Part shown: positions 20,347-60,860 of the stretch, piece after piece
How the letters are laid out: every line of letters starts with the position of its first letter
Numbering within the stretch: the stretch's first letter is position 1
From: Candidatus Woesearchaeota archaeon
GTDB lineage: Archaea; Nanobdellota; Nanobdellia; Woesearchaeales; UBA10216
Assembly (NCBI GenBank): GCA_016192905.1
Contig: JACPTG010000001.1
Span: 227,005 to 291,004, forward strand
Direction of reading: 5' to 3'
Length of the DNA: 64,000 nt
Translations under genes and position numbers: made by a program
Notes under the pieces: generated by a model
Seen by the model: only the letters and a program-made list of their open reading frames with translations
Databases searched by the model: none
What the model was told of the DNA's origin: nothing

Positions 20347-20472
20347 CCCCGCGTAGCTCAACGGCAGAGCGATCGGCTGTAGATATGCACTGCTGACTTT
20401 GCCTTTAAGGCTCCTGATGATGCTGTGCCAGCCGTTCCCGATAGGCTGCCGGTTCAAATCCGGCCGCGGGGA
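20347..20472 (+). tRNA. tRNA-Tyr (GTA) with canonical 37/38 intron (20383-20436, 54 nt)
   Basis: Acceptor CCCCGCG/CGCGGGG (C1-G72), ATCGG..CCGAT anticodon stem, CGGCTG/CAGCCG central helix. Confidence 0.9.
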
Positions 20473-55398: not shown

Positions 55399-55442
55399 CA
55401 TGTTTTGCTTGCAGCAAAAAGCTGTAAACAAAATGTTTACAG
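55399..55442 (+). other. 44-nt BHB-type intron in 16S helix 23 / 690 loop
   Basis: Central helix GTAA/TTAC, bulges AAC and AGT, inner helix ATGTTTTG/CAAAATGT; removal restores AGCAGTAAAATGCTATAATCC. Confidence 0.8.
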
Positions 55443-55539: not shown

Positions 55540-55681
55540 ACGAGAAATCCTGTGGATTTCTGGAGCCCGTCAGGGTACAATTACGCGTAGCGTAATTTGT
55601 ATTAGCTTCGGCAAAGATTGTTCAGTTCTACCATTGCCTTAGTGAAGCCAGAAGGTATAATCAGGGTTTGCCTCGCTAACT
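55540..55681 (+). other. 142-nt BHB-type intron in 16S 790 loop (793/794)
   Basis: Central TTAG/CTAA, bulges ATA and CTA, inner CGAG/CTCG; removal restores GGATTAGATACCCGAGTAGTCC. Confidence 0.88.
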
Positions 55682-56262: not shown

Positions 56263-56722
<460 letters not shown>

Positions 56723-57006: not shown

Positions 57007-57107
57007 GGGCTCGTAGCTCAGCCTGGTAGAGCATCGCCCTTGCAAGGGCAAGCAACGGCTTGCCCAAGGAGAGGCGGGGGCCTCGGGTTCAAATCCCGAC
57101 GAGTCCA
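57007..57107 (+). tRNA. tRNA-Ala (TGC) in 16S-23S spacer, 27-nt intron at 37/38 (57045-57071)
   Basis: Acceptor GGGCTCG/CGAGTCC+A, stem TCGCC/GGCGG, intron hairpin GGGCAAGC-AACG-GCTTGCCC. Confidence 0.93.
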
Positions 57108-59192
57108 TTCAGTTAGTCTTTAATTAGCAATTCAATAATCATTCATGCTCAAAAATCGTTTGAGAGCCGTTCCTTACCCGAAAAGGTTTGGGCCGAGCTG
57201 GTTGAGTGATCGCGAGGTCACGTTTATGATGCCGTGCGTATCCTAACTACGCTGTTAGATGGAGGACTTGGCTCAAGCGCTGACGAAGGGCGTGGCAAGC
57301 AGCGTTATGCTCCGGCGAGGCGCATGCAGCCGTAGAACCGGAGATTCCTGAATCAGACATCTGAGCGCAAGCTGATCCGTGAGGATGGGAAACGCAGGGA
57401 ATTGAAACATCTTAGTACCTGCAGGAGAAGAAATCAATTGAGATGCTGTAAGTAGCAGCGAGCGAAAACAGCGAAGGCCAAACCGAATCCTGCCCTGAAA
57501 GGGGCCGGAGATGTGGTGTTGTAGGACCGCTCATTAAGGGCCCTCCCTGGGCAACCGGAATTTCCCTGGAAAGGGAAGCCACAGAGGGTGACAGCCCCGT
57601 ACGGGCAAACTTAGGTGGGCCTGAGCGTGTTCCTGAGTACCGTTTATCGGATATTAAACGGGAAGCCGGGAGTCATCAACTTCCAAGCCTAAATACGTCT
57701 TGAGACCGATAGCGAATAGTACCGCGAGGGAACGTTGAAAAGAACCCTTAACGGGGAGTGAAAAGAGCCTGAAATCTAACAGCTATAGTCGGTCATGGCT
57801 CTAAGGAGTTATGACATGCGTTTCGAATAACGTGCCAGGGAGTATATCTGAGTGGCAAGGCTAATCCACTTCGTGGAGGAGCCGCAGCGAAAGCGACAAG
57901 CCCGCAGGCAACGAGGGGCGCGGAGTGAAAGCTCCGGGAGTTACTTGGATATGACCCGAAACCGGGCGATCTATTCCAGGGCTAGGTGAAGCGTGGGTAA
58001 AACCTCGTGGAGGCCTTAAGGGGTTCTGGGTGCAACCGTTCCTGTGACCTTGGATTAGGGGTGAAAAGCCCATCGAGCCCGGTGATAGCTGGTTCCTGCC
58101 GAAATAGGCCGCAGTCTAGCCTCAGGTCAGACAGCATGTGCGGTAGAGGGACGGATTAGGGGTTGAGGCACCGAAAGGTGTCGGCCCTTTGTCCAACTCC
58201 GAATGTGCATGCGTCATAGCCTGGGAGACGGGGAGTCGGGGTAAGCTTGACTTCCGAGAGGGGAACAACCCAGACTGCAGGTAAGGCCCCTAAGTGCTGG
58301 CTAAGTGCTAATGGGGTAAGGGCGTCTGCAGCCGAAGACAGCGAGGAGGTTGGCTCAGAAGCAGCCATCCTTTAAAAAGTGCGTAACAGCTTACTCGTCG
58401 AGGTTGCAGGCACCTAAAATGGACGGGGCTAAGTCAGCCGCCGATACTGCAGACCCTGAAAAGGTGTGATAGGCAAGGCGTTCTGCTGGGCTGGAAGCAA
58501 GTCCACGAGGACTTGTGGACCCGGCAGAAATGAAAATCCTGGCGGTAGTAGGATCTGAGAAGCTTGAGAATAGCTTCCACCGAAAGGGCAAGGGTTCCTT
58601 TACAATGTTCGTCAGTAAAGGGTTAGCCGGTCCTAACCGACGCCCCAATTGGGCTCAGGGAAAGGGATAACGGTTAATATTCCGTTGCTGCCTGGGTATG
58701 TGCGGCGACGCAAGTCTGGCTTGCGACGCCTCCGGCTAGGCTGACACTGTACAAGTGTTAACCGGAACAAGTCAGTGGAGTATCGTAATGGTGAGAAACT
58801 GATTAAATCCGGGAATAGTGCGAAAGCATTCAGCCAATGCCAGGGGCCCGTGAAAAGCGAGCCGGAAAAAATCCCAGGCAACCGTACCAAGAACCAGCAC
58901 TGGTGCCCCTAGGTGAAAAGCCTAAGGTGTGTAGGTGTAATCTGGCTAAGGGAATTCGGCAAACTAGCCCCGTGACTTCGGTCTAAGGGGTCCCTGTTCC
59001 CGTCTCCGCATGGAGGCGTTTTCAGGGCGCAGTGACAAGATGGGCCCGACTGTTTAACAAAAACTTAACTTACCGCAACGCTGCAAAGCTGTGTATGGTA
59101 GGTGACGTCTGCCCAGTGCCGGTACTTCAAACTCCCTTCCAAGGGAGCTAAGAGCCGGTAAACGGCGGGAGTAACTATAACTCTCTTAAGGT

Positions 59193-59456
59193 GAACAGTT
59201 GCCTTAACAAAATCGGGCTGTATGCTGGAACATCTCTTTGAGCTTATGATAGGCTACTGCTATGGCGACATGGCAGCGACCCCTTAAAATTCATAAGCGA
59301 GAGACAATCAGCAGGAAAGGCTGGACTTTGTCCAGAATCCCCAGAGACTGTACGCCTGACTCCTGAAAAGGAGAAGATACAGTCCGACCCCAGCAGCGAT
59401 GTTGGGAAGCCAGCAGAAATGACTGGCTCGCCTCGAATGAGGTTGTAACAGACGTG
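59193..59456 (+). other. 264-nt ORF-less group I intron in 23S at L1931
   Basis: Exon CTTAAGGT^AGCGAAAT; P1 exon TTAAGGT pairs with IGS GCCTTAA with U.G; R CAGAGACTGTACG and S AAGATACAGTCC forming P7; terminal G. Confidence 0.92.
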
Positions 59457-60050
59457 AGCGAAATACCTTGTCGTTTGATTGACGACGTGCATGAATGACG
59501 TAACGAGGTCCATGCTGTCCCTAGCCAGAGTCCTCCGAACACCCTCTCCTGGTGCAAAGGCCAGGGATCTCCAGTGGGAAGCGAAGACCCCGTGAAACTT
59601 TACTGTAGCTTGTTGCTGCAACGCGGGTTCTGCTGTGTAGTGTAGGTGGGAGTCGCTAAAGCTGGGCTGCAAGGTTCAGTGTAGACGCCGATGAAACACC
59701 ACTCTGTGGGACTTGCGCTGCTAACTTCGCAAGAAGGACAACTATAAGCAGACAGTTTGGCTGGGGTGGCACTCTGCTGAAAAGGTATCAGCAGAGCCCT
59801 AAGGTTGGCTCAGGCGGGTTGGAAATCCGCCGTGGAGTGCAAAGGCATAAGCCAGCCTGACTGGATTTGCAACAAGAACAAATCCAGAGGCGAAAGCCGG
59901 GCTTAGCGAACCCCTGTGTCCCCCTTGATTGGGGCCAGGGATGACCGAAAAGTTACTCCGGGGATAACAGAGTTGTCTCGCCCGAGAGCTCCTATCGACG
60001 GCGAGGCTTGCTACATCGATGTCGGCTCTTCCTATCCTAGCCGTGCAGAA

Positions 60051-60071
60051 AAGCCTCATGGGCTACTGTAG
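60051..60071 (+). other. 21-nt BHB-type intron in 23S near ~E. coli 2531
   Basis: Outer AGCCG/CGGCT, central GCAG/CTGT, inner AGCC/GGCT; removal restores GTGCAGAAGCGGCTAAGGG. Confidence 0.75.
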
Positions 60072-60860
60072 GCGGCTAAGGGTGGGGGTGTTCACCCATT
60101 AAAAGGGATCGCGAGCTGGGTTCACAACGTTGTGAGACAGTTGGTTTGATATCTACTGGAGATGCGAGGATGTCTGAGGGAAAGGGACGTCTAGTACGAG
60201 AGGAACGATGTCCCGGCGCCTCTGGTCAACCGGTTGTCCAACAGGGCAGGCCGGGCAGCTACGCGCTAGAGGATAAGTACTGAAAGCATCTAAGTACGAA
60301 ACCTCCCTCGAAAATAGACATCTCAGACACCCATAGAACATGGGTTTGATAGAGCAGGGGTGTAAGTACCAAGGTAACGAGGTATTCAGCCCGCTGCCAC
60401 TAATCGTCACAATTGGATACGCACGGCATTTTCATTTCTTTTGAGTTTTAATTGGTAGGCGCAGCTATGTCCTGCTGAAGGTCTTAAAAATATTCAGGCT
60501 CACAGAAACCCAGTTCTCCCCCTGTGAAATTTTTATAGAAACTTTCAGAGGGGCCATTTGATGTTGCTGATATTGCGCTTGGCCTTGGTGCCATTGCTGT
60601 TTACGGCGCAGCGACGCATGCCTACAACAAGGTTTTTGGCCGGGATGGAATAAGGAAAAAGCTGCTTGACTCTGAGCTACGCGGAGGCTATGATTTTATC
60701 CAAGATTTGGCTTTGAAGGCAACCGCGCAGTTCTCAGGGGGGAGCACATCTGTTTTGGCATATGCCCTTCATGCGCAGGGCTGAAAGGGCCGTATTATCC
60801 GGGATTCCAAAGCAGCGCTGAGCCACAAAGGATAAATATATGCACATACATACAGGCCAT

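Follow-up and report, generated by a model that had tools for sequence, protein, structure and literature searches.

The rRNA operon and its insertion at L1931

The analysed window, a stretch of 64,000 nt from an assembly of six contigs that is 95% complete, contains an rRNA operon in which the 16S gene (54774 to ~56852) is interrupted by three inserts and the archaeal 23S gene by one insertion of 264 nt with exact ends (Table 1). The junctions of this insertion read CTTAAGGT^GAACAG...GACGTG^AGCGAAAT and lie at 59192/59193 and 59456/59457. These boundaries cannot be slid, so that the intron ends are unambiguous, and relatives carry an uninterrupted CTTAAGGTAGCGAAAT at the same site. With numbering assigned from the conserved flanks, the insertion site corresponds to E. 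coli U1931, in agreement with the LSU/1931 site of PMC6125680.

Table 1 Features of the rRNA operon (window positions)
Feature	Position	Strand	Evidence or remark
16S BHB-type insert, 44 nt	55399–55442		good bulge-helix-bulge junction
16S BHB-type insert, 141 nt	55540–55680		good bulge-helix-bulge junction
Candidate group II-type intron, ORF-less, 428 nt, 16S ~1400	56295–56722		between CACC and GCCCGTC
Host archaeal 23S rRNA gene	57235–60423	+	RF02540 (LSU_rRNA_archaea), 2573.6 bits
ORF-less group I intron (IB4-type), LSU position 1931, 264 nt	59193–59456	+	RF00028, homologues, covariation, empty sites
P1 5′ exon strand, UUAAGGU, terminal U	59186–59192	+	exact pairing with 59201–59207; kept in 19 homologues
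Internal guide sequence (P1 3′ strand), GCCUUAA; its G wobbles with exon U	59201–59207	+	pairing, covariation set
P3 5′ strand	59213–59218	+	partner 59354–59359; compensatory changes in 5/6 pairs
P4 5′ strand	59223–59227	+	partner 59309–59313; near-invariant in 19 homologues
P5 5′ strand, closes long P5 extension	59233–59237	+	partner 59300–59304; pairing, covariation analysis
P4 3′ strand	59309–59313	+	partner 59223–59227; covariation analysis
P6/P6a minimal hairpin	59314–59340	+	P6a covaries; homing-endonuclease ORFs sit here in related introns
P7 5′ strand GACUGUA, guanosine-binding helix	59346–59352	+	pseudoknotted pairing with 59378–59384
P3 3′ strand	59354–59359	+	partner 59213–59218; covariation
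P8 hairpin	59360–59373	+	4/4 counted pairs covary
P7 3′ strand UACAGUC	59378–59384	+	pairing with 59346–59352
P9, P9.1, P9.2 hairpins	59389–59443	+	P9, P9.1 covary; P9.2 from window pairing only
Terminal guanosine (omega-G), 3′ splice site	59456	+	G at this column in 19/19 homologues

Group I identity and fold of the L1931 intron

The insertion matches the Rfam group I model RF00028 over its whole length (model positions 1–253) with 41 bits and E = 2.7e-9. This score lies below the gathering score of 50 bits, so the intron is detected by E-value threshold, and at the gathering score Rfam calls no group I intron in the 23S gene of the window. Homologous L1931 introns exceed the gathering score, the highest reaching 87.8 bits. 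The intron RNA folds better than its shuffles by 6.35 standard deviations (z = −6.35). No ORF of note lies inside the intron, the longest + strand frame wholly within it encoding 34 aa, and searches across the host genome returned no match to LAGLIDADG_1 (PF00961) and none to the reverse transcriptase model PF00078; the intron is therefore without an evident homing endonuclease of the LAGLIDADG_1 family. A reading of 'DNQQERLD' in P4–P6 as an endonuclease relic was rejected, since it is conserved core sequence and by itself no evidence of a relic. The first-pass annotation had proposed a group I intron without homing-endonuclease ORF at L1931 of the archaeal 23S gene and had named an Rfam search as a check. 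That search did yield a match, though below the gathering score, and together with the covariation and the empty sites it supports the assignment of the 264-nt insertion as an ORF-less group I intron.

Structure was derived from an alignment of 19 compact introns, for which RNAalifold returned 58 pairs; compensatory change is seen in 37 of these. In the resulting model (P1–P9 with the P7 pseudoknot), 98.1% of cells are paired across the 19 homologues, a figure favoured by construction of the model from the same 19 sequences, so that the double-sided compensatory changes in 37 of 60 pairs are the stronger evidence. In controls with partners slid by one to three columns, only 34–43% of cells are paired, and none of the shuffled alignments attains any of the five measures used. 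The homologues keep P1 with its U·G wobble as well as the terminal G and the core of P7: the wobble closes the end of the exact P1 helix in 19/19, and P7 is 95.5% paired, with its first five pairs kept in 19/19 (two of these via double changes) and lower conservation of its last two U–A pairs. The P3/P7 pseudoknot and P4–P6 are both present, P4 to P6 being 93–100% paired. The exact P1, exon U·G wobble and terminal G claimed in the first-pass annotation are all found here, and so is its P7 (ACTGTA/TACAGT), here as GACUGUA with UACAGUC. The bases GTT directly precede the guide G in 30 distinct introns and could pair with exon AGC as a short P10.

An alternative is an archaeal bulge-helix-bulge (BHB) intron, for which the tRNA splicing endonuclease makes the cuts and a protein ligase seals the exons. 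Introns with good fit to this motif do occur in the operon: the 16S gene holds two and the spacer tRNA a third. Measured against the motif, in which a 4-bp helix across the junctions has a 3-nt bulge on either side, the L1931 intron fails: it has no central 4-bp helix, and its junction score of 7 compares with a mean of 8.7 at arbitrary positions 264 nt apart, 86% of which score equally well or better. The missing motif and the covarying P3/P7 core of a group I intron refute this origin in practice, and we regard it as extremely improbable. A degenerate insertion that no longer splices, and is either kept in the mature rRNA or excised to leave a fragmented 23S, would fit the sub-threshold Rfam score, and splicing itself is deduced from sequence. 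Against such decay, the core helices, U·G wobble, omega-G and P7 elements are all preserved and agree with the columns conserved among the relatives. At this 23S site, flanked on both sides by universally conserved segments, a retained 264-nt insert would presumably disable the ribosome; we consider decay very unlikely.

We therefore favour, with a probability of about 96%, a compact group I (IB4-type) and presumably self-splicing intron that has no mobility gene and interrupts, at L1931, the 23S gene of a DPANN archaeon related to Woesearchaeota. The transcribed intron RNA would fold into the P3–P9/P4–P6 core, with P1 setting the exon U·G wobble in the active site. A guanosine bound by P7 would attack after U1931, and the exon 3′-OH would next attack behind the terminal G and so ligate the exons into an intact 23S. 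We infer this two-step guanosine pathway because it is the standard of the family and its parts are intact. As the intron contains no mobility gene and the genome no LAGLIDADG_1 match, the intron is probably kept by inheritance and neutral self-removal.

Homologues and distribution

Homologues were sought in the species collection with a pattern that combines the archaeal 23S flank with the guide sequence. This search returned 54 stretches with an archaeal-type 23S exon and the L1931 guide sequence, labelled mostly as Woesearchaeota, Nanoarchaeota, Pacearchaeota, Thermoplasmatota and Euryarchaeota, with one Altiarchaeota and one Hermodarchaeum record. The exon-guide sequence in the latter, an Asgard assembly (L006), suggests that the intron family may reach Asgard archaea. 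Archaeal-type 23S exons with an L1931 intron also occur under the labels Limnochordia, Patescibacteria and Aminicenantes (L003, L007 and L012), which are probably mis-binned archaeal contigs. Complete introns come in two forms, ORF-less (P6 segment of 27–33 nt in most) versus ORF-bearing (~405–445 nt in most), and the P6-segment reading frames that were translated carry a LAGLIDADG-type motif.

We searched 59 relatives; 22 genomes, the host included, have a 23S match at the downstream exon of the site. L1931 is occupied in seven of them (the host, G002, G006, G012, G019, G022 and G047) and exactly empty in 14 order-level relatives; one further genome (G004) was counted neither as occupied nor as empty. 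Within the host's family, all four genomes with a readable site are occupied. A search of the whole family for the exact empty site found none, and BLAST showed most genomes of the family to have no recovered 23S at that place. The nearest homologue belongs to the same-family genome G006, and is 78% identical in BLAST over the greater part of its length. Two loci named Woesearchaeota (L048, L049) carry the introns of G006 and G002, both of the host's family, and on this ground the host is placed near Woesearchaeota. Two distinct 23S copies with different L1931 introns, one of 677 nt with an ORF and one of 553 nt, are found in G012 of the same family (L067 and L082 on contigs C6 and C13), reflecting either two rRNA operons or contamination.

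In a tree of intron cores, the host intron falls into a supported set of 13 introns (100/99), all 13 ORF-less and from source genomes mostly labelled Woesearchaeota or Nanoarchaeota, mostly DPANN. Two complete L1931 introns of CPR bacteria are placed among the archaeal introns, where deeper support is weak. The ORF-less lineage that holds the host intron is akin to L1931 introns with an endonuclease. Group I introns of cyanobacteria, hyperthermophilic bacteria and organelles share the L1931 insertion site.

L1931 is mentioned in PMC1995217, and among the 39 archaeal group I introns surveyed by Nawrocki, Jones and Eddy in 2018, LSU/1931 is the commonest site, with 15 IB4 introns (PMC6125680). 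The first-pass annotation was right that the site is known and understated its familiarity in archaea. Short published IB4 introns include IB4.24 (248 nt) and IB4.1 (281 nt) (PMC6125680). The published IB4.27 (MNWW01000056.1 8341-9021) was recovered among our homologues with matching coordinates (L036:341-1021 / L068), and homology to this same-site intron, placed in the same tree, indicates subtype IB4 for the host intron. Archaeal IB4 introns such as IB4.27 (Woesearchaeota) and IB4.24 (Micrarchaeota) share with it the gene, site, P1, omega-G, alignable core and archaeal hosts; the family is known in ORF-less and ORF-bearing forms, and the host intron, of the ORF-less form, differs in sequence only. 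The L1931 insertions of CPR bacteria (PMC11270868; L105, L106) have the same site and core, and their ORF-bearing form has an enlarged P6 segment like that of archaeal ORF-bearing introns. Unlike the host intron, both complete CPR introns recovered contain a LAGLIDADG-type ORF, and their hosts are bacterial. The L1931 intron is accordingly not new in kind, and adds one more well-supported ORF-less member, within a DPANN lineage, to a known archaeal family that the general Rfam group I model overlooks, at its gathering score, in cases such as this one.

16S inserts and the combined precursor

The two smaller 16S inserts and the intron of the spacer tRNA-Ala (57007–57107), which also has a good BHB junction, reach BHB scores of 15–16, small boundary shifts being allowed for these. 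This tRNA gene and another at 20347–20472 exceed the 71-position tRNA model and were found by Rfam and missed by ARAGORN.

The third 16S insert resembles a group II intron: it has a hairpin like domain V, which scores 25.3 bits with RF00029 (E 0.0086), and it matches group II D1–D4 (RF01998) with 23.2 bits (E 0.054), both scores lying below threshold. An 8-nt linker precedes its 5′ motif AUGCGCC. The same insert is found in G014 with 83% identity, and in two Woesearchaeota loci (L019, L032) it contains a LAGLIDADG_1 ORF (E 8.7e-19 and 4.6e-19). Its 5′ pattern is matched in four of 288 genomes of the order, and a search of the plasmid collection gave no match. Relatives of the LAGLIDADG protein of L019 and L032 are encoded by CPR bacteria (best match 46% identity); the CPR inserts with this protein end at the same GCCCGTC and have a similar hairpin, and two of these inserts score above the gathering threshold of RF01998. 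For CPR bacteria, insertions that resemble group II introns and carry LAGLIDADG have been described at 16S position 1400 (PMC11270868). Our searches of the searchable literature found no description of an archaeal counterpart, which does not prove its absence; if the assignment is true, this intron is an archaeal case undescribed in that literature, and possibly the first.

Given the BHB junctions of the two smaller 16S inserts and of the spacer tRNA-Ala, a single pre-rRNA appears to combine BHB, group II-type and group I introns. We think it likely that this precursor needs three splicing chemistries, and that both ribozyme introns are ORF-less with kin carrying LAGLIDADG genes at the same rRNA sites of DPANN archaea and CPR bacteria. 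This rRNA setting is more unusual than the L1931 intron, and the rarer 16S intron is the bigger surprise. An old proposal holds that, in archaea, BHB introns have taken the place of group I introns. The apparent presence of all three intron types in one archaeal rRNA transcript bears on this proposal, and also on rRNA intron exchange between DPANN archaea and CPR bacteria.
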